Below are positions 2,459 to 36,085 of a DNA stretch of 42,482 nt, piece after piece. Every line of letters starts with the position of its first letter. Position 1 is the stretch's first letter. Location of the stretch: positions 1 through 42,482 of the IMG/VR virus record IMGVR_UViG_3300020159_001826. One strand, given 5' to 3'. The position numbers and the translations under genes are program-made. Under the pieces are notes generated by a model that worked only from the letters and a program-made list of their open reading frames with translations, ran no database searches and was not told where the DNA came from. The stretch comes from a virus.

Positions 2459-2459
2459 A

Positions 2460-3026: not shown

Positions 3027-3027
3027 A

Positions 3028-3873: not shown

Positions 3874-3875
3874 AA

Positions 3876-5992: not shown

Positions 5993-6006
5993 GTTTTTAT
6001 TCCTGT

Positions 6007-7789: not shown

Positions 7790-8403
7790 GCGTTGTCCTC
7801 TGGTTTAGCGGTAAAACTTTGTATATGATAAATAAATGAATTAACTTTTTTCATATGAAACCCGTTATTAGGTAATAAACTAGTAAAATAATCGTAATCA
7901 AATTCATTATTTCTGAATGGAATCCAATTCTTTTTATGTATAAAAACTGGAGCTGCATTAACAATACCATCCATAACTTCTGGTACATTATGATTTTTTC
8001 TGTACTCGTTAATATACGAAACAAATCCATCATGATCAAAGCTTTCTGGAGTTCTGCCAAAATCTTTTTCGATACAATCTCCACCGGCCGGAATTCTACC
8101 TGACTCTACGTACCATCCTGATACGCAACTCATTTCATCTGCTTGCGAATATTTTACAAATAATTCATCCCAGCCTGGTTCTACAAACATGTCGTCGTTA
8201 AACGGACAAATAATATCTGTCGTCGCGTAACTCACACCTACGTTAATAGCTGTATAGTAGTCGTATCCAGATACCGGTATTATTTCATGTGGGTATGTAG
8301 AATTTTTAGTTAAATAATCTATACATACTTGTAAGCATGTATTTGGTTTTCCGTTTATATTTTCTAAATACGGAATAATAACCGAATAAATTGGTTTTTT
8401 CAT
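7786..8403 (-). CDS. small GT-A glycosyltransferase, tandem paralogue
   Basis: A 205-aa protein homologous along its whole length to the product of 7205-7789: SVIIPYLEN at the start, FNDDMFVEPGWDELF near residues 80-95, ESGRIPAGG, FGRTPESFDHDGF, VPEVMDG and a C-terminal FIYHIQ. The acidic NDD motif with hydrophobic flanks is what suggests a nucleotide-sugar transferase. The two copies have diverged clearly, so the duplication is old and they may add different sugars or act as a heterodimer. The gene lies between two C-methyltransferase paralogues. Confidence 0.72.
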   Translation of the reverse strand: MKKPIYSVIIPYLENINGKPNTCLQVCIDYLTKNSTYPHEIIPVSGYDYYTAINVGVSYATTDIICPFNDDMFVEPGWDELFVKYSQADEMSCVSGWYVESGRIPAGGDCIEKDFGRTPESFDHDGFVSYINEYRKNHNVPEVMDGIVNAAPVFIHKKNWIPFRNNEFDYDYFTSLLPNNGFHMKKVNSFIYHIQSFTAKPEDNA

Positions 8404-8413
8404 ATTTTCTTTT

Positions 8414-9628: not shown

Positions 9629-10394
9629 AATAAAATTCTTTTAATTCTTGGAACTGTTGTTCTATATTAGGTAGTTTAACATCGGATTTTAAACATCTAT
9701 TGATTGTATGTACATCTGTTATCGGTATTAAAACTTTATTAAAATTAAATACTGAATTAATAGTCTGTAATAGTTTCATTTTTGGTATGCATTCGGTACT
9801 TAGTTGTATAAGTTTAGGATAATTATCCCAGTCATTAATTAATCGTAATGCATTTTTTGCCCATTCTAAACTAGTAATACCGCTCCAATAATGATTTGTT
9901 ATACAACGAACTTCCGACTGTTGTTTTGAAAACCAAGAAAATAGTGTTACGCCATTTTCTTTTTCTGGGCCGTTTATCGATGTACGTATTTGTTTAACAT
10001 TGTTATAATCCATTAGTATTGCCCCGATACAAGCTTTAGATAATCCGTATTCATCGTAAGCATCTCTAGGCGCAGACTTTTCATATATTTTATTAATAGT
10101 TAAGTCTCCAGAATATTCTCCATCTGTTGCAGGATTAATAATATTTCCTTTAAAATTTTTAGCTAACCAAATAGGTAATTTGATATTTAATTCAGTAAAG
10201 TTAACATGCTCTTTTTGCGGTATAGATGCTATGCAGTTAATCAAAAAATCTGCATTAGAATTTTTAACTTTATTTTGAAATACAATACTAGGCCAACGAT
10301 CATCTATTGTGTCTACAGAAATATTTATAAAATTAAAATATTTATGTACCATATGTCCTAACATACCATTATGTCCTAAAACTAAAACTTTCAT
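9618..10394 (-). CDS. RmlD-like NDP-4-keto-sugar reductase
   Basis: A 258-aa SDR related to dTDP-4-dehydrorhamnose reductase, which reduces a 4-keto NDP-sugar to the final deoxysugar. Seen are MKVLVLGHNGMLGHMV (nucleotide-binding loop in RmlD style), NPATDGEYSG where RmlD has its STDYVFDG region, YGLSKACIG as the catalytic YxxxK, and INGPEKENG. The protein is slightly shorter than cellular RmlD (about 290 aa). It sits between a 4,6-dehydratase-like gene and a C-methyltransferase, so these three enzymes could form a pathway to a branched deoxysugar. Stereochemistry is unknown. Confidence 0.82.
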   Translation of the reverse strand: MKVLVLGHNGMLGHMVHKYFNFINISVDTIDDRWPSIVFQNKVKNSNADFLINCIASIPQKEHVNFTELNIKLPIWLAKNFKGNIINPATDGEYSGDLTINKIYEKSAPRDAYDEYGLSKACIGAILMDYNNVKQIRTSINGPEKENGVTLFSWFSKQQSEVRCITNHYWSGITSLEWAKNALRLINDWDNYPKLIQLSTECIPKMKLLQTINSVFNFNKVLIPITDVHTINRCLKSDVKLPNIEQQFQELKEFYYGL

Positions 10395-10403
10395 ACGTAT
10401 AAT

Positions 10404-11333
10404 TTAAGGTTTAAAATAATTGTAATTAGATAAAATATCATTTAATTCTTCTTTACTAACTACTACTTTATCGCTTGTAAATTCATTAAATGGTAAACTT
10501 GCGTTAGCTATTTTTTTATAGTGCATTATAAAATTTTTACCTGAAATATCTACGCGAGGCGATTCTTCAAGCGAAAATAACATCTCGTGAATTTTTTCCG
10601 ATGTTCTTGGCTCACCTATAGAATAAGTTAATCCAAACTTTTCATGAAATAATTCAAATAAATCTGCAACTTTAAAAGATTTAATATTTGGTATTACATT
10701 ATAACCTGATAATTGTAAAGCATCTTCTACTAAGTTAATCGCGTCATCTATTGATATCATAAATCGCGTCATTTCCTGAGAATATAACGTTAATGAATAT
10801 TTTCTATTAATTGCGTCCCACATTAATGGTATAATACTACCCGTAGAATTTAATACATTTCCATATATAGCTGTTGACAGACGTACATTAGAATTAGCAT
10901 CATTTACTATAAATGATTCGCCAGCAACGAATTTCATTGATCCGTATAAAGTTGTAGCTGCTCGACTTTTATCTGATGAAATAAAGCACGCAGCTTCGAA
11001 ATTATTTTCTTCTGCGATACGTTTACAATTAATTGCGCCGTTAATAATTATTTCAATAGATTCCTCAACATTTTGATCTACAGCTTCAATTTGTTTTAAA
11101 CTAGCGGCGAAAATTCCAATATTATGTCCTTTGCTAGATCTACGTAATAAGTCTAAATTACGAATATCGCCTATTACGCAGTTAATATTTGGATACATCT
11201 TTTTAAGATAATACTGTTTTGCTTCATCGCGTGAATATACGGTAATATCGTTATGCTGATAATACTTTTCAATTAGGTTTTTACCTAAAAATCCAGCACC
11301 TCCTGTAATAAATATTTTTTTACTTACTATCAT
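10404..11333 (-). CDS. polysaccharide-biosynthesis SDR, PseB/CapD-like NDP-sugar 4,6-dehydratase
   Basis: A 309-aa extended SDR. FITGGAGFLGKNLIEKY binds the nucleotide, VIGDIRN follows, and SSDKSRAATTLYGSMK corresponds to the STDKA...YGxxK block of the CapD/PseB/FlaA1 group. That group removes water across C5-C6 of UDP-GlcNAc-like sugars to give 4-keto-6-deoxy intermediates. Such an intermediate is the natural substrate for the reductase and C-methyltransferases encoded just downstream. Spacing is 9 bases to the reductase and about 20 to the upstream transferase. Family good, exact substrate uncertain. Confidence 0.83.
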   Translation of the reverse strand: MIVSKKIFITGGAGFLGKNLIEKYYQHNDITVYSRDEAKQYYLKKMYPNINCVIGDIRNLDLLRRSSKGHNIGIFAASLKQIEAVDQNVEESIEIIINGAINCKRIAEENNFEAACFISSDKSRAATTLYGSMKFVAGESFIVNDANSNVRLSTAIYGNVLNSTGSIIPLMWDAINRKYSLTLYSQEMTRFMISIDDAINLVEDALQLSGYNVIPNIKSFKVADLFELFHEKFGLTYSIGEPRTSEKIHEMLFSLEESPRVDISGKNFIMHYKKIANASLPFNEFTSDKVVVSKEELNDILSNYNYFKP

Positions 11334-11352
11334 TTTTATTTACTTCTTTTTT

Positions 11353-12048
11353 TTATATAACTGTTAAATTCCAATCTATTAATGGCGTTAGCCATGCACT
11401 TTCACCATGTGTAGAACATCCAGGAATTGGTGTAATTAAAGATGCTCCTTGATTTCTTAAATCAATCCACATATCGAAATCATATGGATGAGTAGTGGAT
11501 GTATATTTTCTTAAAGTAGATTCGTATTTTTTTAATGTATTTACTTTAGATGCGAATGTCATCGTAGTACTATTAGTAAATTTCCAATGACACGTATTAG
11601 ATAAAAATACTTTAGTAACTTCGCCACCATCTTCTACATAAGGATTAATTCCGTCTATATACTTATCAGGATGATCATATAATGAAACGAAATCTATTCC
11701 TAAATCAAAACCTTCTTTAAGTATTTTAAGAGAATCTTGTACATGTAAATAATCATTTTCTACAAAGTATACAATTTCATCGTCATCATACTGTAGTGCT
11801 AAATCTAATGCTAAGTTAAAAGACCCGGCACCATGGCCAATAGATACATTTGTTATTGCAGAAAAATGTACGTATTTATGAATCATTTGTAATGTATCGT
11901 CGCTACAGCTATCGGCTATAATATTAAGATTTTCATTACCGAATATACGTACAAAGTTTTTTAAACAATTTTCATTATTAATATAATCTGGTTTTACTTT
12001 ATTATAACCCGACTCACTTATTCTATATATTATTTTTGTTTTATCCAT
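11353..12048 (-). CDS. GT-A-like glycosyltransferase
   Basis: A 231-aa putative sugar transferase. IIYRISESGYNKVKP opens the protein, NLNIIADSCSDDT supplies an acidic GT2-like loop, and VYFVENDYLHV looks like the DxD-equivalent metal site. The rest contains YDFDMWIDLR, which could be the catalytic-base region. It overlaps the upstream methyltransferase by 19 bases. The call rests on fold-level pattern only. Confidence 0.65.
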   Translation of the reverse strand: MDKTKIIYRISESGYNKVKPDYINNENCLKNFVRIFGNENLNIIADSCSDDTLQMIHKYVHFSAITNVSIGHGAGSFNLALDLALQYDDDEIVYFVENDYLHVQDSLKILKEGFDLGIDFVSLYDHPDKYIDGINPYVEDGGEVTKVFLSNTCHWKFTNSTTMTFASKVNTLKKYESTLRKYTSTTHPYDFDMWIDLRNQGASLITPIPGCSTHGESAWLTPLIDWNLTVI

Positions 12049-12599
12049 ATTTTATTTTTGCAGTTAATAAAGTCGTTTCCAAAAAATTCTTCAGCTGCTT
12101 GAGTAACACCCGGCCAATCTAAATCGTCTCCCGATATTATTCCTCCGATAGTTAATTTTGGATACCAATGTTTAATATCTAATAAAACATTTTCGTAATC
12201 ATGTGCTGCATCGATCATAATATAATCAATGCTATTATCTTCGAATAATGCAGATGCTTCTATAGAAGTATTTCTAATAGGCGTAATCACTGACTTTACA
12301 GGTGAAATATTATCTATAAAATGATTATAAAGACCATCAGCAGTTTTTAATAAAGGTTCGTATGATGGATTAGTTATATCTAAATGTTCTTCAGATCCAT
12401 CCCATGTATCTACGGCATAAAATTTAATATTTTTGTTACTATTAACAATTTCAACGCCCATATATGCTGTACTACGACCTTTCCAACTACCTACTTCTAC
12501 AAATGTATAGCTTTTATTTAATTCGCATGAATCTACTACGTGTGTATATAAAAATTCGTATGCGAACCAGCCTTGTATATTTTGATAAAAATGATTCAT
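12030..12599 (-). CDS. class I SAM-dependent methyltransferase
   Basis: A 189-aa methyltransferase. TFVEVGSWKGRSTAYM is SAM motif I. FYAVDTWDG gives the acidic ribose-binding residue, and the later IDYIMIDAAHDYENVLLDI and GGIISGDDLDWPGV match the Methyltransf_24-type group, with acidic residues that often bind a divalent metal. In this island it probably O-methylates a sugar. It is short and has no extra domain. A role in modifying another small molecule cannot be excluded. Confidence 0.78.
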   Translation of the reverse strand: MNHFYQNIQGWFAYEFLYTHVVDSCELNKSYTFVEVGSWKGRSTAYMGVEIVNSNKNIKFYAVDTWDGSEEHLDITNPSYEPLLKTADGLYNHFIDNISPVKSVITPIRNTSIEASALFEDNSIDYIMIDAAHDYENVLLDIKHWYPKLTIGGIISGDDLDWPGVTQAAEEFFGNDFINCKNKIWIKQK

Positions 12600-12603
12600 A
12601 TTA

Positions 12604-13347
12604 TTATATATTAAATTTGTTTTCTACGATATTATAACTATAACCATGTACAAAATCAGTACCATTAAATGGTCTACTAAATTCTTCTTCAACTAAATCT
12701 GTCCAATTGGTATCGTTTTTATGTCCCCAATTATCTACTTTTTTAAGCATTTCTTCTTTTGTACGATACCATGAATAATGATGAACAAACGGTTGATTGT
12801 TTTCTGATAATATTAAAGTACGATCTCCGTTTATTAATTTATGATTAAATAATTGTTGTCTTTCAGCTCTTAAATCTAAATTCCAATTACAATCGTTTTT
12901 TCGTATTAACAAACCTGCCGACTCTGTTTTAGTTGCTTGATATATTGGTTCTCTAAAGTACCAATAACATGTTAACCAATACATATAATCTGTATCTTTT
13001 ATTGTTTGAAACCAATAGTCAAAACCATCATCGACTATCTCGTCAGCATCTACGAATAACAACCAATCATTTTTTGCTATATCTGTTCCGATTGCTCGAC
13101 TTAAGTTATGATAATATCCTGTATTAGACTTTAGTCCGTCCCATTCAAACATATAAATAGAACATTTTGGAAATTTAGCAGCAATATTAAAACTTTGAGT
13201 TAACCGCGTTTCATCTTCTGGTTCACCGTTAAAAAAATGGTCGCATATAGGTATTATAATTTCGTCACTAAATTTAGAAAGCTGCGTTAAATTAGCTTCT
13301 AAAAAGCGCAAATCCATTGTACTGTATTGTAGTATACTTGATATCAT
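12604..13347 (-). CDS. GT-A-like glycosyltransferase
   Basis: A 247-aa protein with GT2 character. The N-terminus has ISSILQYSTMDLR. LSRAIGTDIAKNDWLLFVDADEIVDDG, here quoted by its core FVDADEI, is a clear DxD with the usual hydrophobic run before it. The C-terminal FVHHYSWYRT resembles the HHYSW segment of lipopolysaccharide core beta-glucosyltransferase-like proteins (WaaE/KdtX group). The start overlaps the upstream gene by four bases. Donor is unknown. Confidence 0.78.
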   Translation of the reverse strand: MISSILQYSTMDLRFLEANLTQLSKFSDEIIIPICDHFFNGEPEDETRLTQSFNIAAKFPKCSIYMFEWDGLKSNTGYYHNLSRAIGTDIAKNDWLLFVDADEIVDDGFDYWFQTIKDTDYMYWLTCYWYFREPIYQATKTESAGLLIRKNDCNWNLDLRAERQQLFNHKLINGDRTLILSENNQPFVHHYSWYRTKEEMLKKVDNWGHKNDTNWTDLVEEEFSRPFNGTDFVHGYSYNIVENKFNI

Positions 13348-14207
13348 TGTATTCCTTTTATCATTTCGTATTCATCAAATATAGGAAATTTTTTCCATTT
13401 TTCCAACCATTTTTGAATATTTTTTTGTTCTGATTCTTTTTGTCTATTTGATGATTGTCCGTTGTTTTCTTCTAAACGATGTGAACCTCTAGCTCCAAAA
13501 TGCCATACTATAGAACTAAATGGAAGTACAAATCTTACACCATGGTTTAACATTCTTAAAAATAAATCCATATCATCCCATGATGTTGGGGCGAATCTAG
13601 GATCATTACCTCCAACTTCATCCCATACGGATTTTTTAACTAATCCAGAAACTCCTTCTCCTTTTGGTATTTCAAAATAGTCATTTATCTCTTTAAACTC
13701 TTCAACCCAATTTTCAAGATCTTGTGCTAAAAAATTATCATGATAGCATCCAAAAATATCTTTACTTATTAATAAAGTACCATGTCTTTGAGGAGATTCA
13801 AACATATTAGGTTCTATTCTATAAGAATTAACCCATAGCTTTTCTTCAGGATACTTTTCATGAATTTTTAATAATTCAATATCCCAATCTTTAGTTACAT
13901 AAAAGTCTGAGTGAAGAAACATTATATATTCTGTTTCTACTTTATCAGCACAAAAATTCATTCCACCTCCAATGCCTTTAACAGCATCAGTGTGAGTATC
14001 TATATAATATGTGATATTATAAGTGTCTGCATTTTCAGCTAACCATTCATTAGTGCCGTCTGTGCAATTTTCTGCGTGAATTATAAAAGGAGCATCTTTA
14101 TAAAAAGAGTTTTTTCTAACAGACTCCACTGCTAACTTTAAATACGGCAGATTATTGTAGGTAGAAATACAATGAGTTAAAGGACTAGATTGTGTCATAA
14201 TATGCAT
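13344..14207 (-). CDS. family 2 glycosyltransferase
   Basis: A 287-aa GT2 enzyme: THCISTYNNLPYLKLAVESV at the start, IIHAENCTDGTNEWL as the nucleotide-binding loop, YIMFLHSDFYVTKDWD with the DxD-like SDF, and a well-formed acceptor region WDEVGGNDPRFAPTSWDDMDL (core GGNDPRF, SWDDMD), followed by WHFGARGS. These features are typical of GT2 proteins in phage and bacterial glycan clusters. The start may be the Met at residue 4. It overlaps the upstream transferase by 23 bases. Confidence 0.85.
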   Translation of the reverse strand: MHIMTQSSPLTHCISTYNNLPYLKLAVESVRKNSFYKDAPFIIHAENCTDGTNEWLAENADTYNITYYIDTHTDAVKGIGGGMNFCADKVETEYIMFLHSDFYVTKDWDIELLKIHEKYPEEKLWVNSYRIEPNMFESPQRHGTLLISKDIFGCYHDNFLAQDLENWVEEFKEINDYFEIPKGEGVSGLVKKSVWDEVGGNDPRFAPTSWDDMDLFLRMLNHGVRFVLPFSSIVWHFGARGSHRLEENNGQSSNRQKESEQKNIQKWLEKWKKFPIFDEYEMIKGIQ

Positions 14208-14808
14208 TTTGTTTTATTTGTCGTTCAATTGTTTTTGGATGATATAAAGAATAATCTTCTTCCATCGGTAATGTAGCATATTGTTTAAATCCACCTAACA
14301 CTTCATGTACCTTATTCTCCCATTTGATATGTGTAACATTTTTATATATACGCCATTGGTAGTCAGGCCAATTTACCCATCCTTGTTCATTTACATTCCA
14401 TCCCCATTGCTGCATATGATCTTGTGACATACCTTCAACGGTATTAACTCGAGGTACTAAATAAACTTCAACATCTGGATTTGACTCTAAAATGTCAGGT
14501 AATTCTCTTAATAAATTTTCATCTGGAATTTCATCAGCGTCAATTTGAAAAATATAGTCGCCATTGCAGAATGAAGTTAAGGTATTTTTCCAATTGGCAA
14601 AGTGTGCTTCAAAGTAGTCAATTGCCAATACAATCTTTTTACTATGAGCGTATCCTTCTAACGATAACTCTAGTTGTTTACTAGCTTTTGGTTTGTCTAG
14701 TAGAACTACAATTTCGTCTTCTGTTCTTTTAAACTCTAATAAATGTTTAATTAGTCTGTTAACTTCTTCTAGTTCGTTGCAGACTGTAATGGCATAACTA
14801 ATTTTCAT
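14185..14808 (-). CDS. family 2 glycosyltransferase, LPS-core WaaE-like
   Basis: A 207-aa GT2 protein. ISYAITVCNELEEVNRLI is characteristic of the WaaE/KdtX-type and SPBc2 YdcG-like group. VLLDKPKASK follows, FQIDADEIPDENLL carries the DxD, and VHEVLGG lies near the C-terminus. It is shorter than cellular relatives (about 250 aa) but appears complete. It sits 3 bases after the GT4 gene upstream and overlaps the downstream GT2. It likely adds a hexose; acceptor unknown. Confidence 0.83.
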   Translation of the reverse strand: MKISYAITVCNELEEVNRLIKHLLEFKRTEDEIVVLLDKPKASKQLELSLEGYAHSKKIVLAIDYFEAHFANWKNTLTSFCNGDYIFQIDADEIPDENLLRELPDILESNPDVEVYLVPRVNTVEGMSQDHMQQWGWNVNEQGWVNWPDYQWRIYKNVTHIKWENKVHEVLGGFKQYATLPMEEDYSLYHPKTIERQIKQNAYYDTI

Positions 14809-14811
14809 ATA

Positions 14812-16110
14812 TTAAGGTTCTACTTTTTTTAATTTTGGCAATTCAATTTTTTTCAATTTTGGTAATGTCAAACCTACTTGTTTAGGAAACTCAGGAATTC
14901 TAGCATCTAAGATAGAACCTAGTTTTTCTTGCATAGCATCAAAAGAAAAGTTAGTCTTAATACGATGATATGTCTTTCTAGACTTTTCAGTGTATGTCTT
15001 ATAATTTTTAAATATATCTTTCATATATCCAATTGCTTGGCCATAGTCGACAGTAAACCAAGAAGCTTCTTCATTAAGTACTCCTTTCCAAGCTGCTGAT
15101 GGATGTACCTTTGTTAACGTACCTCCTAATAATATTGAAGAGTCTTCATCTAAGAAATCAACGTGTCCTGACCAATTGGTTGTAATAATTGGCTTAGAAG
15201 TCAATGCAGCTTCTAACAAAGGTCGACCAAATCCTTCACCTCTTGTAAAAGAAATATGTGCTTTAACTTTTGAATGATTATATAAGTCATTCATTTCTTC
15301 ATAACTAAAATCACCATATGCAATATAGACATTAGGTAAATTCTTACTGTCAATACTAGATTTGATTTGTTTAATTTTATCAATTAATTGATCTCGGTCG
15401 ACTGCAGATAAACTACCGCCTGAAGTTTTAAGAATCAATGCTGGTGCGTTTTGTTTATTTTTAAATGCTTCGTAAAAAGATTTAATTAAACCAGACACAT
15501 TTTTTCTATCTTCTCCAAATGCACCTGGAAGCCAATGACCTACGAATAAAAATGCAAAATCTTCTTTTACATCTTTAAATATAGACTCTACTGCAGGAGT
15601 AGCTGTATATGATTTTTTAAATTTATCTAAACGAATCCCTTCAAATAAAACTTCTATAGGTTTTTGTAATTCGACAGAGCCAACAATTTGTTTTTGTTCA
15701 TTAATCTGATCGTATTTTGTTTGTTCAAACACAGCTTTAGCGTGGTTTGAAGATGCTAATATCAAATCCATTCTATTACAACCTTCAATCCAGCTAGGAT
15801 CACATAAATTAGTTTCAATACCAGCTGTCACGCCAATATTAAATTTACCTACGCGTTGAAATTCATTAGGCACCGTTACTTGCATATAAATTTCTGGCTG
15901 AGCTGCCAAAGGTTGTATTAAGATTCTTGAAATAATATCTTGATCTTCTTCTGTTAAAGCATTCATTGGAGTACCACCCCAACGTGTCGACACAATTTTA
16001 ATGTCATATTTGTCTAGCGCAATAAGTGCACGTACCAAGTCGCGTGATCGCTCTCCATATCCTGAACGAGTACCTACCGGTGCTTGAAATACTAATACTG
16101 GTTTATTCAT
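14812..16110 (-). CDS. GT-B fold glycosyltransferase, group 1 (GT4-like)
   Basis: A 432-aa retaining-type GT-B enzyme. The N-terminal domain has a GTRSGYGERSRDLVRAL glycine-rich loop. The C-terminal domain carries FLFVGHWLPGAFGEDRKN, the HISFTRGEGFGRPLLEA motif (the EGFGxxxLEA pattern that binds the donor diphosphate) and TNWSGHVDFL. The last 20 residues hold two copies of a LPKLKK-type basic repeat, which could bind an acidic partner or surface. It is the second gene of the island. Confidence 0.86.
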   Translation of the reverse strand: MNKPVLVFQAPVGTRSGYGERSRDLVRALIALDKYDIKIVSTRWGGTPMNALTEEDQDIISRILIQPLAAQPEIYMQVTVPNEFQRVGKFNIGVTAGIETNLCDPSWIEGCNRMDLILASSNHAKAVFEQTKYDQINEQKQIVGSVELQKPIEVLFEGIRLDKFKKSYTATPAVESIFKDVKEDFAFLFVGHWLPGAFGEDRKNVSGLIKSFYEAFKNKQNAPALILKTSGGSLSAVDRDQLIDKIKQIKSSIDSKNLPNVYIAYGDFSYEEMNDLYNHSKVKAHISFTRGEGFGRPLLEAALTSKPIITTNWSGHVDFLDEDSSILLGGTLTKVHPSAAWKGVLNEEASWFTVDYGQAIGYMKDIFKNYKTYTEKSRKTYHRIKTNFSFDAMQEKLGSILDARIPEFPKQVGLTLPKLKKIELPKLKKVEP

Positions 16111-16117
16111 AACTTAA

Positions 16118-17500
16118 TTATATTTTAAAAATTTCGGTTCTTTTACGTGGTTGCCATTTTGCAAACATAGTATTAATATCTTTGATGAAATTATTACCCA
16201 TCGATGCTGCTGACAATCCAATTTCAGGTTTCATGTAATACTCACGCCCTAATAATCCTGCTGCGTTTCTTTCTTCATCAGTCTTAGACCACCAACTCCA
16301 AATTGCAATTGCAGCGTCTTTATAATTTGCAATGTCATCGAATATATAAGGTGTCATTGGAGACCCTTGAAGTGTTCTTACTGCTGGGAATACTGGATTA
16401 ACCCATTCACCATGATCTTTATATTGACCATCTGCGTTAGTTTGAAACTCATCTGAATAATCATCTGCCATTAAATAGCTTCCGTCTTCTTTCTTAAATC
16501 CACATTGGTCTTGCATTCCTCCAGTTACATTAACAATAATAGGAGTGCCTGCCATAACAGACTCTGCAGTGCCTAATCCAAATCCTTCATTAGAAGCAAT
16601 ATTAGCAGTAATGCTAGATAAATTATACAAGAAGTTCAAATCCTTAGTTGTCAACAATCTATTATTTGTAAACATTACAGAATAATTAGGACAAAGCTCT
16701 TTAATAACTGCTGGTAAATCTGTTCCATTCTCATCAACTGGATCAGTGTGAAGTAAGAATAAACATTTAGCAGCTTCTTCTGCTCCAATTTTATCACAGA
16801 ATTCTTTATACGCTAAAATTAAATCTGAAGTGTGCTTTCTTCTAATATTCCTAGCATTATGGAACATAATAAATTCTTTACCTACGGGAATTAATTCAGC
16901 TTTAAATTTCTGAAAATCATTCCATTGTTCATGGGTTTCAGTGATTGGGAAGAATTGCTCGTGATTGATACCATGAGGTACGTAAGTAATTTGCCAATCT
17001 TCATACCCACAATTTTTTAATACCTGCTTAACAATATTATGAGTTTGTTTTGAAATACACATTAACAAGTCACAAGACTCGTAAAATGGTTTATTCCATT
17101 TAGGATATGGGGTATCATCCCAAATTGTATAATATGCTAAAGGAAGAATTTGTCTCAATTCATGCTCCATTGCATAAAGCCAGCCCCAAAATCTAGGATC
17201 TGTAAAATGTAAAATAGCGTCTGGTCGCTCTACTTGAATTAATTCTCTAAGTACATCTTGATTGCCATAACCTGAGTATGCATAGATTTTTACATTTGCA
17301 TCTTCAACGCCAGTTTGTTTAGCGATATCTAGAGACAAATCAAACACTTTACCTTCGTCAGGATGAACTACTGCGGCTCCTAATTGAACCCAGTCAAACT
17401 CTTTACATGTATTTAAAACGATCTCTCGAGAAACTGTCGCAATGCCTGAGTGCATACGTAGATCGTCTGATAACAGAAGTATCTTTTTCTTTTTTGTCAT
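16118..17500 (-). CDS. GT-B fold glycosyltransferase, group 1 (GT4-like)
   Basis: A 460-aa GT-B enzyme and the first gene of the sugar island. Seen are LLLSDDLRMHSGIATVSREI (N-terminal loop; core HSGIATVS), MFHNARNIRRKHTSDLI opening the donor domain, and NIASNEGFGLGTAESVMAGTP (core EGFGLGTAE), the donor-binding E-x7-E motif of GT4. Length is normal for the group. A 75-base AT-rich leader with a promoter-like element precedes it. Acceptor and donor are unknown; DNA or protein acceptors remain possible. Confidence 0.87.
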   Translation of the reverse strand: MTKKKKILLLSDDLRMHSGIATVSREIVLNTCKEFDWVQLGAAVVHPDEGKVFDLSLDIAKQTGVEDANVKIYAYSGYGNQDVLRELIQVERPDAILHFTDPRFWGWLYAMEHELRQILPLAYYTIWDDTPYPKWNKPFYESCDLLMCISKQTHNIVKQVLKNCGYEDWQITYVPHGINHEQFFPITETHEQWNDFQKFKAELIPVGKEFIMFHNARNIRRKHTSDLILAYKEFCDKIGAEEAAKCLFLLHTDPVDENGTDLPAVIKELCPNYSVMFTNNRLLTTKDLNFLYNLSSITANIASNEGFGLGTAESVMAGTPIIVNVTGGMQDQCGFKKEDGSYLMADDYSDEFQTNADGQYKDHGEWVNPVFPAVRTLQGSPMTPYIFDDIANYKDAAIAIWSWWSKTDEERNAAGLLGREYYMKPEIGLSAASMGNNFIKDINTMFAKWQPRKRTEIFKI

Positions 17501-22604: not shown

Positions 22605-25500
<2,896 letters not shown>

Positions 25501-25503
25501 AAT

Positions 25504-25535
25504 TAAATATATTAAATTCTTTTGTCATTTCCAAA
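25504..25535 (-). promoter_or_regulatory. conserved promoter element upstream of dpdA
   Basis: Minus strand: TTTGG, AAATGAC, AAAAGA, TTTAA, then TATATTTAATT, with 20 nt between TTTG and TATATTTA. The TTTGG and AAAAGA parts lie within the last codons of the upstream glycosyltransferase gene. Confidence 0.72.
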
Positions 25536-26519
25536 TATTTGTTGAATTATTTTAGCTGAATCAAAAAATTCTTCATACAAATTTTGTCTAGTGTCTTTAA
25601 TTAAAGGAATATACAAATTGTAATTGTTTGTCAATTCTTTTATTGTTGCTGTTAAATCAGGAGCGTGTTTACTGTAATTAAAGATATTTTCTGTCCATTC
25701 AGGAGGGTATCTAAACTCTGCAGGTAACAAATGCTTAAATCCTTCAATATCTGGAACTAATGGAATGGTATCTAATAAAAGGCATTCGTAAATTTCTTTT
25801 CCGATATTAGGGTGTGAATAAGGTAGAAATGCTATCTTTGCTTTAGATATTTGAGTCATTAACTGATATCTAGATAATGGTTCTCGTTCCTGAGCGAATA
25901 TAATATTTATGTCTTTATATACTCGTATAAAGTCGTACATAATCTGTTCATGTAAGTCTGAATACTTATGCCAAGGAAAAATCAATGTATTTTGTTTGAA
26001 ATAATTTCCTTTATATTCAGACAATTCCATGTTTAAATAATCTAATGGAAATGGAAGCACATTAAGTCTTTCTGGAAACACAAATTTAGACACGTAAATT
26101 CTAAACTGCTCTTTATGAAACTCAGATATAAAGTAAGATTCGTCTAAACATCTAAATGAAGCTCTTTCATGCACCTTTCTCCAATTTCTGTCATTTAGTG
26201 GTCGGTATTCTGGATCTTGATTTATATAACAACCACGAGTCCAGAACCCAATCATCTTAACAGGTATTTGATAATTCTCTGCCCAATGTTTAACATAAAT
26301 TGTCATTGTCGTCCACGCATTTGGAAATACAAAAATATCTTCTGTAGTGATATAACCTGTTTGGAAATATTCTTTAATCATTTCCAAATCATTAACTTCT
26401 TGAATTAAATAATCAGAATTAGAAGCTTCGGCATATCCATGTAACAATGACGATACATGTAACTCCCAAGAGTTTTCGTCTGATATTAATTTGTCTATTA
26501 CTACAAAAACTTTTCTCAT
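25512..26519 (-). CDS. GT-B glycosyltransferase next to dpdA
   Basis: A 335-aa protein with a GT-B outline. The N-terminal half ends in VKMIGFWTRGCYINQDPEY. The donor domain has LIFPWHKYSDLHEQ, INIIFAQEREPLSRY and AKIAFLPYSHPNIGKEIYECLLLDTIP, where GKEIYECLLL takes the place of the E-x7-E donor motif. Its 3' end carries the dpdA promoter, and the small QueD-like gene is upstream, so it sits in the DNA-modification block rather than in the sugar island. It could act on DNA or on a surface glycan; the neighbourhood makes DNA worth testing. Confidence 0.72.
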   Translation of the reverse strand: MRKVFVVIDKLISDENSWELHVSSLLHGYAEASNSDYLIQEVNDLEMIKEYFQTGYITTEDIFVFPNAWTTMTIYVKHWAENYQIPVKMIGFWTRGCYINQDPEYRPLNDRNWRKVHERASFRCLDESYFISEFHKEQFRIYVSKFVFPERLNVLPFPLDYLNMELSEYKGNYFKQNTLIFPWHKYSDLHEQIMYDFIRVYKDINIIFAQEREPLSRYQLMTQISKAKIAFLPYSHPNIGKEIYECLLLDTIPLVPDIEGFKHLLPAEFRYPPEWTENIFNYSKHAPDLTATIKELTNNYNLYIPLIKDTRQNLYEEFFDSAKIIQQIFGNDKRI

Positions 26520-26607: not shown

Positions 26608-26964
26608 TTATAATTTATCTACACGGGCTCCATTTTCATTGTCTTCCCATACCTCAACCCAATCACATTCAAATTGTCTTAATATTAATTCTGCTAACAT
26701 TTCACATGACATTGGGCCAAATTCACACGTTCTGGTTTGTTCGACAAAATATATGTCATTAATATATTTTAATACATCTCGCTTAAGCATTATAAATTCT
26801 CTATCACGATCTGAGTGATTAACCATTTTAGCTAAAGTAAAATGAAACATATGTCTATGTCTATCTGCTAAAAAGCTTACTTCTGGAAAGAGTTCAGCTG
26901 CTTTTGGAAAATTGTGCATTCCGTCTACTGCTAGCTTAACTAATACTACCGTCTTTGTTTTCAT
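26608..26964 (-). CDS. small 6-pyruvoyl-tetrahydropterin synthase-fold protein (QueD-like, no catalytic Cys)
   Basis: A 118-aa protein with the PTPS/QueD blueprint. VDGMHNFP (H17) and DRHRHMFHF (H36, H38) supply the three zinc histidines. SCEMLAELI matches the second conserved helix, and VEVWEDNENGARV carries the pterin-anchoring Glu. QueD's catalytic Cys, about four to six residues before the HxH, is absent, and no LDH block is seen. It therefore probably does not make carboxytetrahydropterin. It lies between the DNA polymerase and dpdA genes and may tailor a 7-deazaguanine or bind one. The true QueD is at 35621. Confidence 0.78.
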   Translation of the reverse strand: MKTKTVVLVKLAVDGMHNFPKAAELFPEVSFLADRHRHMFHFTLAKMVNHSDRDREFIMLKRDVLKYINDIYFVEQTRTCEFGPMSCEMLAELILRQFECDWVEVWEDNENGARVDKL

Positions 26965-26977
26965 AATTTATATTTTT

Positions 26978-27898
26978 TTAAAAACTAAAAAATTCATTAG
27001 TGTTTGAATTTTTAGGGATACCTCCCCAATTCAATGCACTATAAAAATCTCCTAACTTATTCTCTAGAGAAGCTGTAAAGATTTTTTCATAGTCAATATA
27101 TTGAGTTATAAATTTAAGTATTTCTTTTGGATCTTCAAAGCCCTTTACAGCACAACTTTCTAATCCAAATGGATTTTGTTTAAGATAAGTCCATTTAATC
27201 TTTTCTCCATCTAAGATTGGTTGAGATGCAGTGATTTTATAATACTCCATCAAATCATTATAGTTAAGAGCTGACTTAGCGTGAACCGGAGTGCCTTTAA
27301 CTCTATTACCAAACATTTGGCCTTTTTCCTTTTTGATTTTATATTTTTTCAATTCTTTAACACCTGTCGGAAACATAATATCAAACATTGGCTTTTGCTT
27401 CATATCCTCTCTAAATGCTAAGACCTTATCATCAATCTTTTTCTTTTCAGAAATATTCAAAATGTCAATTAAGATACCAGACATAAATTCACGAAAAGCT
27501 TTAGGAAAGTTACTTCTTACAACATCCATTCCTTTTACATCTAATTTCCATTCTTTAGCACCATTGGTCATCTGTGATATTAATACTCCTTTTTCAGAAA
27601 TAATTTTTTGTGCATAACGCTTCTTTGCAATCCATAATCCTGATTCAGAAACATATTCTTGCTTAATATTTAAGAAGTGAGTATCTGAGTTTAAGAAGTG
27701 CTTACAAAATCCATCCCATGAATCATTAATATACTTTTCAACTACTTGAGACGTTTTATATGTAATATCAATCTTTTCTTCTCTAGATAATTGCTTATTC
27801 ATTTTCTTTTCTAAACCATCAATTAAATCTTGTGCACTAACGAATACAGAATCAGTGTCACAGTATATAACCCTATCTTTTATTTTTTTAGCATCCAT
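26978..27898 (-). CDS. B-family DNA polymerase, C-terminal part of a split gene (gp43-like)
   Basis: A 306-aa polypeptide starting 12 residues before polymerase motif C (VIYCDTDSVF), which provides catalytic aspartates of the palm. WIAKKRYAQKI is the conserved KKRY block. The thumb follows, and the tail NEFFSF resembles the C-terminal clamp-binding peptide of gp43. Motifs A and B and the exonuclease are on the other piece (28796-30460). Together they make 860 residues against 898 in T4 gp43. The start codon is inside the 3' end of the homing endonuclease gene, so its translation is probably coupled to that gene. Confidence 0.93.
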   Translation of the reverse strand: MDAKKIKDRVIYCDTDSVFVSAQDLIDGLEKKMNKQLSREEKIDITYKTSQVVEKYINDSWDGFCKHFLNSDTHFLNIKQEYVSESGLWIAKKRYAQKIISEKGVLISQMTNGAKEWKLDVKGMDVVRSNFPKAFREFMSGILIDILNISEKKKIDDKVLAFREDMKQKPMFDIMFPTGVKELKKYKIKKEKGQMFGNRVKGTPVHAKSALNYNDLMEYYKITASQPILDGEKIKWTYLKQNPFGLESCAVKGFEDPKEILKFITQYIDYEKIFTASLENKLGDFYSALNWGGIPKNSNTNEFFSF

Positions 27899-28734
27899 AT
27901 TAAAATTCCTTTTTTTATTAACTGTTTAACCATATATTCTGATAATCCTAAGTCTTCACGTAAATCTTTAACTTTTGTATAAATTTTATTCGTTCTAGTG
28001 TCTTCTATTGCTTTACTTTTACTTGACACATTTTCAGAATAATATTTTTTTAATTTTTCAGACAAATTTAGCCGAGATTTACCTTTTTTAGCTTCAGACA
28101 TCTTTTTTCTAGTCTCTTCTGAATATATATTTTTCTTTCCTTTATTCCAAGGAATTTGTCCTTTATGTGACTCGGATATTTTATTTCTAATATCATCATT
28201 GTATAAAAGTCCTTTATTCCAAGGGTAAAGGTCTCCTGCTTTATACTTTTCTTTCATCTTTTTAGAATGCTCATTATTTTTCTTTCCATACCAATATCCA
28301 TTAACCCCTTTTTGTGCATTACTAATTTTTAGTCTAGTTTCCTCAGTAACGACATGACCTTTTCGAGCTTTACTCAATTTAAGTCTATATTCTGTTGAAT
28401 TATATATTGAATTCGTGTCATTATATATCAATTTTATCGTTTTTGAAATTTTAGCATTAACTACATTGCCTAGGTTCCCGCCATTTCCTCCATTTGATAT
28501 GTTATATCCAGATATATTAGATTTATATAATTGTATCCAATATATCTCTCTTTCATTTAATTCATCTTTTGTTGCACAATATTCTAGAATTTCTTTTTGA
28601 AAATTTTCTTTTCCATATTTAGAAATTGCCGATTTTAATACTTTCCCAGATCCATAATAATTTGGGTTATTTCTAGAGTCTTGTCCTATATAAATTTTGC
28701 CGTTAATTAGATTTGTCGTTTTATAAATTACCAT
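27880..28734 (-). CDS. GIY-YIG homing endonuclease with NUMOD3 repeats
   Basis: A 284-aa free-standing homing endonuclease. The N-terminal catalytic domain shows VIYKTTNLINGKIYIGQ (GIY...YIG equivalents), a conserved Arg at residue 21, an EREIYWI helix with the catalytic Glu, and YNISNGGNGG. After residue 110 come several NUMOD3 DNA-binding repeats (SKARKGHVVTEETR, ISNAQKG, ISESHKGQIPWNKGK, MSEAKKGKS) and a C-terminal helix-turn-helix-like end. It interrupts the DNA polymerase gene between motif B and motif C. It should nick or cut a matching uninterrupted polymerase allele and spread by repair. Confidence 0.93.
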   Translation of the reverse strand: MVIYKTTNLINGKIYIGQDSRNNPNYYGSGKVLKSAISKYGKENFQKEILEYCATKDELNEREIYWIQLYKSNISGYNISNGGNGGNLGNVVNAKISKTIKLIYNDTNSIYNSTEYRLKLSKARKGHVVTEETRLKISNAQKGVNGYWYGKKNNEHSKKMKEKYKAGDLYPWNKGLLYNDDIRNKISESHKGQIPWNKGKKNIYSEETRKKMSEAKKGKSRLNLSEKLKKYYSENVSSKSKAIEDTRTNKIYTKVKDLREDLGLSEYMVKQLIKKGILIWMLKK

Positions 28735-28795: not shown

Positions 28796-30460
28796 CTATA
28801 ATTTTTCGATCATTTCTGATAAACATTTATTTGCCATATCATGGGCGTGCTTTAGTACAGCAACTCCTGTTTGTGTAATTGATTCTGCATTATCCAAATC
28901 ATGGAATCGGAAACCCGGAGCTCCTAATGCACCATACAAAGAGTTATTTACAATCTTCATAGTATGCTGTCTAGAGTCAAAGAATTTAGACATTTCAGCA
29001 TTACCTTCTTTACCATATTTTTTTGCTAATGCTCTATACTCTTCCCTTTCACCCATCCAAGTTTCTAAGATTGAAGGAATTAATCCGCCTTTAGAATAAT
29101 CATATACTACTCCAATAGATGATACCGTAAATTTATTATCTAATAACCATTGTCTAAATTCCATCATTGGAATTAATACATGTTTAGAACCTGATTTAAT
29201 TTTTGCATTGGCAGATGAATACCCGTCAGTCCAAAAATCATTTTTCACTTCATCCCAATTCTCTACTCTACCAACTTTAGTTTCTGGAGAGATATTAAGA
29301 GTTCTAATGATAGAAGGATATAGTGAAGCCATATCCTCGTCAAATACCCATTCATACAAACCTGGAATTGGATCTTTTACAAAGGCGCCGGCGAAGTCAT
29401 TGGAATGCTCATCGTCTGGTATGCTATGATCTTTCAATCTTCTATTCGGAGCTACAATACCTAAACGTTTCATATAAGTTACACAAGCACCATCTAAATA
29501 TCTTGTAGTGAAATAAACATCTTCATAAGGCACATGACCTTTATGACAGATACCTCGAGCCAATGATAAGAATTTAAGTTTCTCATCTAACTCTAATACT
29601 AAAGTAACATCATTAACGTTATATTCAACAAACTTCTCTGGATCTGTTTTATATAAATGGTCTAAAGTACCTTCATACTCAACCTTACCTTTACCTAACT
29701 CTTTTTGTGAAATAGCTTCTAATGAATAAGAAGATTCTTCAGAGTAAGTAAATAATTTATATAATGCCATATAATCTAAACAACTAACACCCATAATTCT
29801 ATAACGATTACGATGTTGAAGATAAATTACTTCATTGATCGGAGATAGCGAATCTGCATACTGCTTACCAGCTACTTTTGAAATTCTATTATACAAATAT
29901 GGAATATCAAAAAAGTCGACATTCCATCCAGTAACGATAGTCGGTCTAATTTCAATCCAATGAGTTAGAAATCTAGAAATTAATTCATATTCAGTTTGAA
30001 CGACTTCTAAAATCATTCCTGAATCTGTATATGGTTTTAAGTTTCTTAAAGGGTCTACAATAATTGCAATAGATTTTTTTCCAACTCTATCATGTAATGC
30101 AATTGAAGTCATTGGTTGCCACGCTTCTTCTGCTGTCGAAAACCCTCCTTCAGTGCTAACCTCAATATCAATAAACAATTCTCTATGACCCGTCGACGGA
30201 TCATCCGTTTCATAATACAAGTCAATTAAAGTTCTTGTTTCTGGATTGATATCTGATTCATAAATATGACCTCTTTGAATGTCAGCGTCATCCCAATCAT
30301 GAACCTTATCTAACTTTGATCCATCCAATGCTACATGTTTTCCATGGGCATTCTTTTTATATGCGTACTTCTTAAATGGAAATTGAAGATGACCATTTTT
30401 GTCATCCCATACATGTACTATATTTTTATGTTTTTGATACGCTATATTCTGATATGCCAT
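28796..30460 (-). CDS. B-family DNA polymerase, N-terminal part of a split gene (gp43-like)
   Basis: A 554-aa piece with the proofreading exonuclease and most of the palm and fingers. LFIDIEVSTEG is Exo I, VTGWNVDFFDIPYLY is Exo II, EYNVNDVTLVLE is Exo III. FDEDMASLYPSIIR is polymerase motif A and MKIVNNSLYGALGAPG is motif B. The frame stops after MIEKL, before motif C, which sits on the C-terminal piece at 26978-27898. Both pieces keep full-length conserved motifs without frameshifts, so they likely assemble into one active enzyme. The first region, before residue 100, has no T4-like RNA-binding domain I can name. Confidence 0.95.
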   Translation of the reverse strand: MAYQNIAYQKHKNIVHVWDDKNGHLQFPFKKYAYKKNAHGKHVALDGSKLDKVHDWDDADIQRGHIYESDINPETRTLIDLYYETDDPSTGHRELFIDIEVSTEGGFSTAEEAWQPMTSIALHDRVGKKSIAIIVDPLRNLKPYTDSGMILEVVQTEYELISRFLTHWIEIRPTIVTGWNVDFFDIPYLYNRISKVAGKQYADSLSPINEVIYLQHRNRYRIMGVSCLDYMALYKLFTYSEESSYSLEAISQKELGKGKVEYEGTLDHLYKTDPEKFVEYNVNDVTLVLELDEKLKFLSLARGICHKGHVPYEDVYFTTRYLDGACVTYMKRLGIVAPNRRLKDHSIPDDEHSNDFAGAFVKDPIPGLYEWVFDEDMASLYPSIIRTLNISPETKVGRVENWDEVKNDFWTDGYSSANAKIKSGSKHVLIPMMEFRQWLLDNKFTVSSIGVVYDYSKGGLIPSILETWMGEREEYRALAKKYGKEGNAEMSKFFDSRQHTMKIVNNSLYGALGAPGFRFHDLDNAESITQTGVAVLKHAHDMANKCLSEMIEKL

Positions 30461-30473
30461 AACTTATTTTCTT

Positions 30474-30505
30474 TTAATATAATTAAATCTTTTAAAATTA
30501 TTGTT
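30474..30505 (-). promoter_or_regulatory. weak promoter-like element upstream of the DNA polymerase
   Basis: Minus strand: TTTTAAAAGATTTAATTATATTAAAAG. The AAAAGA box and an imperfect TATATTAA are present, but no TTTG lies 20 nt upstream. It may depend on an activator or be only an AT-rich leader. Confidence 0.35.
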
Positions 30506-31517
30506 CTGATTTGATTATATCTATCATTGTCTGAGCATTGTCGTGCCATTTAGCAGTCCATTCAACCGGCACTCTTAAATCATAAGTGTCAAATAAATAA
30601 TCGACATTGTTGATATTTTCATATACATTTTCTGCCGGAACCATTTCTGGACAACATGCTCTATTAGGGACTAAAATATTACAACCAAAGAAAATAGCTT
30701 CTTGAATTGTATAACCGAAAGTTTCTTGATATGCTGTCGACAAATACCAACGAGCTTTTGCCATTAATTCAAAATATTCTGCCTTTGTCAATCCATAACG
30801 ATATTCAATATTTTTTGGAAGTTTACCTAAATCCTTTTTAGGTCCTGAAGATGTAATTACAATCTTCTTTTTAGTTTGTTTTGCAAATTGCAATAACTCA
30901 TCAATACCTTTTTCTTTACACCATCTATGAGGCCAGATAACAAAATCTTCTTTTTCTACATAGCCCATTGCTTCATGAAACTCTTGCATATAATTCAAGT
31001 CCCATACTAAACCTGTAGTGTGAACTGTTACATCATTTAATCCGAAATATTCAACTACATTCTTTTTATGGTCATCACTACCAACAAAAATGCCATCACA
31101 GATAAAATGATAACCTGCTTCAGATGCATCTACCCAACTTGATAATTGTTGCACAAAATCTGTCTTATCAGCTCTACCAGCATAATTGATACCATATACG
31201 CGAACGTTAATTCCTAACAATTCAGACATATATTTAATCATTTCAATACCTGGAAAGAAAATGTCGCCTATTAAAAATGCATCACCGTCTTCAACTTTAC
31301 CTTCATTGAATAAATCAGCAATCATTTGAAGCTGCGCAGCTTTAAATTTGCAAGTATTAACGATGTCTAGAAATTGACCACGTTTAATTTCTTTATCAAT
31401 TTCTACTTTAGGATATAATGAAATGTCTACCTTAGGATAAATAGCAGCATTCATCATTTGAGTATAGCGAGCGGGTAACTCTTCTATAGGAAGATAAATA
31501 ATCTTATTTTTTGTCAT
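30498..31517 (-). CDS. GT-B glycosyltransferase (GT4-like), upstream of the DNA polymerase
   Basis: About 339 residues with the donor-binding half of GT-B enzymes. FVIWPHRWCKEKGIDELLQFA opens the C-terminal domain (core WPHRWCKEKG). KIVITSSGPKKDLG follows, and STAYQETFGYTIQEAIFFGC (core QETFGYTIQEA) is a clear ExFG...EA donor motif. NRACCPEM is at the end. The first in-frame ATG (31532) lies within four bases of a TATATTTA element, so I prefer the ATG at 31517 (MTKNKIIYLP). The gene lies directly upstream of the polymerase, apart from the big sugar island, so DNA decoration is possible but unproven. Confidence 0.8.
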   Translation of the reverse strand: MTKNKIIYLPIEELPARYTQMMNAAIYPKVDISLYPKVEIDKEIKRGQFLDIVNTCKFKAAQLQMIADLFNEGKVEDGDAFLIGDIFFPGIEMIKYMSELLGINVRVYGINYAGRADKTDFVQQLSSWVDASEAGYHFICDGIFVGSDDHKKNVVEYFGLNDVTVHTTGLVWDLNYMQEFHEAMGYVEKEDFVIWPHRWCKEKGIDELLQFAKQTKKKIVITSSGPKKDLGKLPKNIEYRYGLTKAEYFELMAKARWYLSTAYQETFGYTIQEAIFFGCNILVPNRACCPEMVPAENVYENINNVDYLFDTYDLRVPVEWTAKWHDNAQTMIDIIKSEQ

Positions 31518-31547
31518 AACTTTTAATTTCATTAAATATAAGAAATT

Positions 31548-33392: not shown

Positions 33393-33754
33393 TTGTCTTT
33401 TTTTAAGACTGCAATTTTAACACTATCTGGAATTTGAAATCCTAATAATCTCAAATCAGCTAAATCTTGCCTGTCTAAATTTTTAGCCGTTATTCTTTTA
33501 GTTCGATTTGTATTTAATTTATATTTGAGTAGTTCCGCACATTTTTCATATTCTTCTATGTTAGAAAAATATTTAATTAAGCAATCAAATATAAATTCTC
33601 GATCAACGTGTTTAGGTAAATCATATTTACATACTATCCTAAACACATTGTCTAGAGTTTGTTTTGAAGACGGAAGAGCTTCTGCCATTGTCAGGAATAT
33701 TGACATTCTCTCTGCTCGTTCTTCAGGTGATAATTTAATCCAATTTGTCGACAA
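33389..33754 (-). CDS. unknown protein, 121 aa
   Basis: A mostly helical, charged protein with segments [38 protein letters not shown] and a basic C-terminal third ([13 protein letters not shown]). No recognised domain. It overlaps the end of folE by 20 bases, so it is likely in the same transcript as the 7-deazaguanine precursor gene. It may be an accessory to that pathway or just a neighbour. Codon use and composition look like the surrounding genes. Confidence 0.65.
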
Positions 33755-34367
33755 ACCGATAAAACTCGTTTCTAGCAGCTGGGTCGTTTAAAAATGCTCC
33801 TGACATTTTTGAAGTCATCATCGTTGAATTATGACGTACTCCTCTTACACAAGCACACATATGATTTGCGCCTACCATAACAGCTACGCCTTTATTGCCT
33901 TCGCAAACTGTATTGATATAATCATGTATTTGCATTGTCAAATTTTCTTGAACCTGAGGTCTGCGAGCAAAATACTCTACAATTCGATTCAACTTAGACA
34001 ATCCAATTACTTTACCATATTCTGAAGGAATATATGCTACATGTGCATATCCAATAAAAGGTAAGTGATGATGAGAACAAAATGATTTAACATCAATATT
34101 TCCTTGAAATACAATTCCATCATACTTATCTAAATTGTCAAATGCTGTAATTTTCGGAGGCTCTGTATAACAACCTTGAGCTAAATCATTAACAAATGCT
34201 TTTGCAACTCGCATCGGAGTATCTGAAGAGTTTGGATCATTTTTCCAATCAATTCCTAACGCAGTCATATACTCGCCGTAATGCTTTGCAGCGTGCTCAA
34301 TCATTGCCTTTTTCTCTTCTTCGCTGCGTGGAATAGAAGAGTTAGCATATTTAAGTAATTCCTTCAT
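33735..34367 (-). CDS. folE: GTP cyclohydrolase I
   Basis: A 210-aa enzyme that converts GTP to 7,8-dihydroneopterin triphosphate, the first step of 7-deazaguanine and folate synthesis. [19 protein letters not shown] contains the zinc/catalytic SHHHLPF block, [12 protein letters not shown] and [11 protein letters not shown] are canonical, and [16 protein letters not shown] carries the other zinc cysteine. Length is typical. A promoter element directly upstream overlaps the groES 3' end. With queD and queE nearby, the likely purpose is a modified base in DNA. Confidence 0.96.
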
Positions 34368-34726: not shown

Positions 34727-35602
34727 TTATACGTTTAATGTTTTATCCCAAGCGCTGATATGTAATCTTGTCAGCCCTCTAAATTTATATTTCTTTGCCA
34801 TTTCTAAACAAAACTGAGTTCTTTCGTGAAAGTCAGATTGCGAATCTAAACCTGGCATACACACCACTTGTTTTAATGGTATATTGAATGGCTCAACAAA
34901 GTCTCTAAAGATTTCCTTTATATCATCTTCTGTACTAATAACAAATTTAAACTGATAATTGGAATGTTCCATTATACGCTTGATTGCGTCTGGATTAATA
35001 CGTTGTTTCTCAGTCATACCTGAGTTAGATAGCTTTGGTGAGCAGTTGATTTGATTAATAATATCGAATAGAGGTTTCTCAATTACTACTGTACCATTTG
35101 TTTCTATTTCATGATATCCTAATATTGTCCCTCCATTTGATGCTTTCATATTTTCATAGGTAGACATTATTGATTCTACCGAGTATCTCCAGTATGTATT
35201 GAAGTTAACAATAGCTTCTTGATGTCCTTTAATTGTAGGTTCACCGCCAGTCCAAATGATATGGATAGTACCGTTCTTAATATCTTCGTAGATACCTTGT
35301 TCCTTCCATTGATCAATTAGATATTGAAACTCTTTATCTTCACCTCTCCATAGCCATTGAGATGTACTATCACAAGTCCAAGTTGCTTTACCTTCTAACT
35401 CTAAATCGCCTTTGAATATTTCACCATCGGCTAGTGATGCTTCTTTTAATAAAGCGTTAGTGAATTTTCTAGACATACCGCAAGTTAGGTTACATACACC
35501 TAAGCGAACGAAATATGATGGTATTCCTGTTGATATACCCTCTCCTTGAACGGAGTAAAAATCACTACTAATTAATAATTTATTTGGATCTATTTTTGAC
35601 AT
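34727..35602 (-). CDS. queE: 7-carboxy-7-deazaguanine synthase, radical SAM, with insertion in the cluster loop
   Basis: QueE rearranges carboxytetrahydropterin to 7-carboxy-7-deazaguanine. The 291-aa protein has FYSVQGEG at the start, RLGVCNLTCGM and WTCDST for the Fe-S cysteines, IIWTGGEPT for the SAM GGE motif, and IETNGT later. The cysteine motif is split: about 35 residues sit between CNLTC and WTCDS, where cellular QueE has CxxxCxxC. The same split is, as I recall, seen in other phage QueE proteins. The length exceeds bacterial QueE (about 210 to 230 aa) largely because of this insert. Confidence 0.9.
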   Translation of the reverse strand: MSKIDPNKLLISSDFYSVQGEGISTGIPSYFVRLGVCNLTCGMSRKFTNALLKEASLADGEIFKGDLELEGKATWTCDSTSQWLWRGEDKEFQYLIDQWKEQGIYEDIKNGTIHIIWTGGEPTIKGHQEAIVNFNTYWRYSVESIMSTYENMKASNGGTILGYHEIETNGTVVIEKPLFDIINQINCSPKLSNSGMTEKQRINPDAIKRIMEHSNYQFKFVISTEDDIKEIFRDFVEPFNIPLKQVVCMPGLDSQSDFHERTQFCLEMAKKYKFRGLTRLHISAWDKTLNV

Positions 35603-35620: not shown

Positions 35621-36085
35621 TTATTCTCCGTAGCTTGCTGAATTTCTTTCATGTTCATAAACCTCTACTTTCGTAGCTTTAACTCTACTATCTGTTTCTT
35701 TTACTAAGAAATCATTAATAATAGTGTATAGATACTTTGCAAATTGTTCACATCCTGTAGCTGGTAATACTCTAAGTTGTATAATACCGTCTTTGCTCAT
35801 TTGCCTGAAAGTATCTAGATATGGATCGTCTTGAGCTATAATGGTTGTGTGATCAAGTAGCCAATTAAAAAATTCTTTTGGTTGCATATGGTTAATCTCT
35901 GTTTTAGCTCTTTTCATACCACCAAAATCAAATACCCAATTGCGATCATCTAATTCACCTTCAAACCAAACTCTAAACGATACTGCATATCCGTGTAAGA
36001 ATTTACAATGCGTACCGTCTGCTTTCCATTGACGAAAACAGGTTGAGTATCCGTCAAATAATTTTGTTGATTGAAATTTTTTCAT
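35621..36085 (-). CDS. queD: 6-carboxytetrahydropterin synthase, phage-type QueD
   Basis: A 154-aa PTPS-family enzyme that makes 6-carboxy-5,6,7,8-tetrahydropterin from the FolE product. THCKFLHGYAVSF holds the catalytic C27 and H31. The usual HGH is HGY (Y33), and the N-terminal zinc His is C16. LLDHTTII carries the Asp-His pair (78-79), and VEVYEHERNSASY holds the pterin Glu. The THC...LHGY variant is, from memory, common in phage and some proteobacterial QueD. Its own promoter lies upstream, and queE follows after 18 bases. Confidence 0.9.
   Translation of the reverse strand: MKKFQSTKLFDGYSTCFRQWKADGTHCKFLHGYAVSFRVWFEGELDDRNWVFDFGGMKRAKTEINHMQPKEFFNWLLDHTTIIAQDDPYLDTFRQMSKDGIIQLRVLPATGCEQFAKYLYTIINDFLVKETDSRVKATKVEVYEHERNSASYGE

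Follow-up and report, generated by a model that had tools for sequence, protein, structure and literature searches.

A QueD-fold, DpdL-like phage protein that appears to replace QueC, and its putative role in 7-carboxy-7-deazaguanine decarboxylation

7-Deazaguanine bases shield phage DNA from restriction (PMC6884629). The viral DNA discussed here, a stretch of 42,482 nucleotides that we refer to as the window, encodes FolE, QueD, QueE and DpdA, together with a further, 118-aa protein that resembles QueD. Hence, the question is what a second protein of this kind might do in a phage with a pathway to 7-carboxy-7-deazaguanine (CDG). As discussed below, the protein is most likely a putative enzyme that strips the carboxyl group from the base before the base enters DNA.

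The 118-aa protein and its fold

The ORF is located on the minus strand (26964-26608) and extends from an ATG through a stop codon. It is real and far from a chance reading frame: at least 591 confirmed stretches in IMG/VR carry a homologue, and homologues are also present in 27 phage records and in 11 contigs from bacterial and archaeal assemblies, mostly MAGs. PHROGs assigns the protein to phrog_17812, for which no function is given. The Pfam, NCBIfam and PADLOC models gave no match to the window protein, and it matched no model bearing the DpdL name in these three collections or in PHROGs. Existing annotations of the homologues read hypothetical, and some overlap an adjacent ATPase annotation. 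One homologue, gp040 of Cellulophaga phage phiST (AGO47179.1; 43% identity to the window protein), is our candidate for the gene named DpdL, and we use the term DpdL-like for the family. The homologue in Chryseobacterium phage MA9V-3 has an apparent N-terminal fusion that looks HNH-endonuclease-like by eye, with no support from Pfam.

An alignment of 78 sequences (A2) was the input for an AlphaFold2 model of the protein, which has a mean pLDDT of 96.5 and a pTM of 0.88. Judged by this model, the window protein has a PTPS/QueD fold. The top PDB matches identified with Foldseek are all QueD/PTPS proteins, P. horikoshii PTPS (2dj6) among them, the best solved structural match is E. coli QueD (4ntk; E 3e-5, TM 0.71), and DHNA aldolase is matched far less well than QueD. 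Moreover, the best match of the A2 profile was 2dj6 (PH0634), over its full length and with an E-value of 0.009, and H17, H36, H38, E88 and E107 align with the zinc histidines, the PTTE glutamate and the last glutamate of that protein. Profile search and structure prediction consequently both bear out the QueD/PTPS relation first proposed from the sequence. Among the 78 relatives, five match Pfam PTPS weakly (best E 0.0012), and in profile-profile comparison with six phage QueDs the C-terminal third alone could be aligned (probability 33%, E 5e-4). A match of the A1 profile to CTP synthase, its only one in the PDB, was discarded as chance; the broader A2 profile worked.

Eight residues (H36, H38, R53, E56, S86, C87, E88 and E107) are conserved in all of the 108 aligned members. 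H17 is present in 106, with gaps in the remaining two, H50 in 105 and R37 in 104. The late glutamates of the window protein are E88, within the SCE motif, and E107, within "WEDNENGA". The zinc triad and the late glutamate to which the preliminary description drew attention are therefore family features, and the three-histidine site of PTPS/QueD, being kept, is predicted to bind zinc. At the position of the catalytic cysteine in QueD (CxxxHGH), none of the 108 members has a cysteine, while 107 have leucine. The earlier statement that the protein has no catalytic cysteine holds with respect to this position, but an invariant cysteine, C87, exists elsewhere and adjoins the substrate glutamate in the SCE motif. 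Because many phage QueDs also carry a cysteine at the equivalent position (GCE), C87 need not be reaction-specific. The Asp-His (LDH) dyad is likewise absent from its QueD place in the alignments, in agreement with what had been noted for the window protein; a DH dipeptide is found somewhere in the middle stretch of 6 of the 108 members.

Compared to E. coli QueD (4ntk), the DpdL-like protein thus shares the fold, the positions of the zinc triad and the late glutamate, whereas it lacks the catalytic cysteine and the Asp-His dyad, has HRH in place of HGH, and shows newly conserved residues in H50, R53 and C87. The archaeal PTPS homologue PH0634 (2dj6) resembles it in that, in the profile alignment, its catalytic cysteine position is also occupied by another residue. 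However, PH0634 has HGH and not HRH, keeps the LDH and is devoid of the SCE motif. Collectively, these data support a QueD fold without QueD chemistry in the 118-aa protein.

QueC exclusivity and DpdA contexts

The CDG pathway genes of the window are all on the minus strand. They encode FolE, GTP cyclohydrolase I (33735..34367; PF01227, E 1.7e-50), a QueE-like radical SAM 7-carboxy-7-deazaguanine synthase (34727..35602; phrog_2076, E 1.6e-37), which matches the NCBIfam QueE models with E-values of 3e-10 to 8e-6, under the curated cut-offs, and a phage variant of QueD (35621..36085; PF01242, E 4e-15). This QueD had been described as complete. It is indeed present, with C27 and D78-H79 kept, but two of the three canonical zinc histidines are missing: in its CFRQW...HCKFLHGY sequence HGY stands for HGH, and the first zinc histidine is lost. 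The variant family is common, with members in about 105 phage records, which makes an alternative zinc site or mechanism likely.

The pathway was surveyed in 26 large records or isolates that carry the gene and in the window (a 42-kb fragment), i.e., in 27 gene-bearing records. With the window counted, FolE is present in 23, QueD in 23 and QueE in 24 of these, and the combination of FolE, QueD, QueE and DpdA without QueC recurs in most of the 26 larger records. CDG pathway genes were not found in the large metagenomic contigs G011 and G013, which may be incomplete. No QueC was found in the window, and in the 26 other records QueC (PF06508) scored over the cut-off once, in Vibrio phage D479, where the gene is accompanied by a weak QueC homologue (L131, 511-1344) with a degenerate ATP-binding motif, SGIDS. 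QueF did not exceed the cut-off in any of the 27; several weak QueF matches lie in FolE genes, which have a related fold. A QueC-like match in Xanthomonas phage X1 looks by eye like a PP-loop protein of the NAD-synthase type.

As a contrast set, 13 phages from different groups were chosen among tblastn matches of the window QueD, all lacking the DpdL-like gene by tblastn; the choice was partly unblinded, as for one of the 13 a QueC annotation was visible in the match table beforehand. QueC scored over the cut-off in 13 of 13 (weakly in Mendera), while the DpdL-like gene is present in none. This gives a Fisher p of 1.7e-9 for QueC versus the DpdL-like gene, a value that overstates the strength of the association because the phages share ancestry. 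Cellulophaga phages divide in the same way: phiST encodes the DpdL-like protein but lacks QueC, and phi38:2, the DNA of which is reported to be 7-deazaguanine modified (PMC11515303), has QueC and no DpdL-like gene. The two proteins apparently act at the same point of the pathway, with CDG as the substrate, although their folds and chemistries are unrelated and their genes nearly exclusive.

The preliminary description placed the gene beside dpdA and the DNA polymerase gene. The polymerase gene does adjoin it, but dpdA (24220..25500, minus strand) is separated from it by a glycosyltransferase-like gene (25512..26519, minus strand). The former encodes a large DpdA-type guanine transglycosylase with a GDSGGFQ motif; the profile of this family (A5; 53 loci) matches TGT structures with an E-value of 3e-4, and D76-S-G-G and D240 are invariant. 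An alignment-free AlphaFold model of this DpdA had a pLDDT of 35 and was set aside. The intervening gene encodes a member of a GT-B (GT4-like) glycosyltransferase family, the profile of which (A4) matches the glucosyltransferase 8xsg (E 1e-8). PF00534 is matched by 14 of the 26 members of this family, and the window member itself has no Pfam match. A second member is encoded at 30498..31532 on the minus strand (PF00534 E 6.8e-6, just under the cut-off).

Three dissimilar DpdA/TGT types are found near the gene in 89 of 116 sequences; near the gene in the other 27, many of them truncated contigs, no DpdA type was seen. Context A (53 loci, including the window) has the large DpdA and, in 53 of 53 loci, a member of the GT-B family, the gene of which usually adjoins the DpdL-like gene. 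Context B (28 loci, including phiST) has a small TGT-like protein that is related to the large DpdA by profile comparison (E 6e-7), often together with a P-loop protein. Context C (8 loci, including Faecalibacterium phage Roos) has a phrog_887-type DpdA. Contexts A and B never occur together in one locus. On the homologue tree, a long-branched one built from a small number of columns, the A/B distribution needs 12 changes, at least four of which are forced by well-supported branches. Since close copies pair with different DpdA types, the product would suit several transglycosylases. Moreover, since close copies reside beside other DpdAs without a glycosyltransferase, the latter would not be needed for the DpdL-like function. 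The P-loop (AAA_18) protein of context B adjoins the DpdL-like gene in one locus (L026, 20272-20766) and is fused to the DpdL-like protein in another (L087, 9914-10882).

QueC exclusivity together with the proximity of DpdA suggests that the DpdL-like protein is an alternative to QueC at CDG and feeds DpdA. A role of the 118-aa protein in the CDG branch, via replacement of QueC, is thus strongly supported. However, replacement of QueC fits any role in which CDG is consumed or handled, beyond decarboxylation.

Putative decarboxylation and its alternatives

We propose, with a probability of about 0.62, that the protein is a CDG-specific enzyme with a QueD/PTPS fold that acts after FolE-QueD-QueE in place of QueC, decarboxylation to 7-deazaguanine being our best guess as to the reaction. 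Decarboxylation is favoured because it is the simplest reaction that finishes CDG as a base without QueC. A metal site that could accommodate a carboxylate, and the loss of the residues on which QueD relies, are also consistent with it. In this scheme, FolE, QueD and QueE would make CDG and the DpdL-like protein would act next. E88 and E107 would hold the 2-amino-4-oxo-pyrimidine edge of CDG in the way QueD holds pterin, while the 7-carboxylate would be bound by the zinc (H17, H36 and H38) together with R37 and residues from the conserved HxxRDxE block. C7 would next be protonated and CO2 released, giving 7-deazaguanine, and the nearby DpdA would then swap guanine in the phage DNA for this base. 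If true, this would be a clear case in which a later step of one pathway has recruited the QueD fold for a new reaction. For context A, one can envisage that the DpdL-like protein, the GT-B glycosyltransferase and the large DpdA form a module and that the DNA carries a glycosylated 7-deazaguanine. We regard this extension as doubtful, and we know of no earlier description of such a hypermodified base.

The replacement of QueC is also compatible with a CDG-binding protein that delivers the base to DpdA, or with an enzyme that makes another C7 derivative, such that the DNA would contain dCDG or some other base. DpdA is near the gene in most loci, and the glycosyltransferase of context A would need a group to decorate. 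However, the metal triad and the invariant R53, E56, C87, E88 and E107 look catalytic, beyond what binding suggests, and the close copies that reside beside different DpdA types without a glycosyltransferase argue against this reading. Base delivery is less likely than decarboxylation, and we consider this pair of alternatives rather unlikely. A different source of substrate is suggested by phage Roos, the main exception to the overall pattern, where the DpdL-like gene, DpdA and the precursor transporter YhhQ are in a row (L031, 14273-16866) and where a search for FolE, QueD and QueE found none. Without the pathway, CDG in Roos would need an outside source, and the substrate of the family could in general be an imported or host-made 7-deazapurine. 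Against this, the CDG pathway is present in 23 to 24 of the 27 records and YhhQ in only one, which renders an imported substrate improbable as the general case.

The composition of the window QueD raises yet another possibility. It has the cysteine and the Asp-His and is short of two zinc histidines, whereas the DpdL-like protein has the opposite set; as an auxiliary subunit in a mixed oligomer, it could therefore provide the phage QueD variant with a zinc site. But the gene occurs in 27 phage records compared to about 105 for the variant family, it is absent in all 13 sampled QueD-bearing phages, and it is also found beside canonical HGH QueD (L052, L088, L091, L092, L094, L095, L104, L105, L111 and L115). 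The heteromer was rejected on the grounds that the QueD family is common without the DpdL-like gene, leaving such a subunit a slim chance. The common T-fold superfamily and the nearby FolE would also be expected for a pterin or folate enzyme (PTPS or DHNA aldolase-like) unconnected with DNA modification. Linkage to DpdA and QueE and replacement of QueC are, however, unexpected for a folate gene, and the structural matches to DHNA aldolase fall far below those to QueD; this explanation is very improbable indeed.

The decarboxylase reading would relate the protein to DpdL, which Cui et al. in 2023 reportedly predicted to be the phage 7-carboxy-7-deazaguanine decarboxylase. The likeness is one of proposed role: DpdL, too, would convert CDG to 7-deazaguanine in phages that encode FolE, QueD, QueE and DpdA. 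In a literature search for DpdL, the matches listed contained unrelated acronyms only; a 2026 paper from the Cui et al. laboratories cites the 2023 work, and the word decarboxylation is absent from it. A phage CDG decarboxylase as a kind appears to have been proposed already. To our knowledge, what is new is that QueC and the DpdL-like gene are nearly exclusive, that the family bears a residue signature, that it occurs in three DpdA contexts and that a glycosyltransferase is constant in context A. Whether a phage has QueC or the DpdL-like gene offers a simple way to predict from its genome the base that it likely carries. In addition, the DpdL prediction becomes testable with the isolates phiST, ACP17, PA5oct and RHph_I1_18, and the invariant residues are now defined as targets for mutation.

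Other genes of the window

The family B DNA polymerase of the window is encoded in two pieces on the minus strand, an N-terminal piece (28796..30460; PF00136, PF03104) and a C-terminal piece with the YCDTDS motif (26978..27898; PF00136), split by a GIY-YIG/NUMOD3 homing endonuclease gene on the same strand (27880..28734; PF01541, PF07460). The endonuclease gene cuts the polymerase just before the YCDTDS motif; the relatives of this polymerase are mostly intact and about 840 aa long. Finally, the region 423-17500 of the window carries approximately 20 successive genes that by eye are sugar-nucleotide-, methyltransferase- or glycosyltransferase-like, an unusually large number for a phage.
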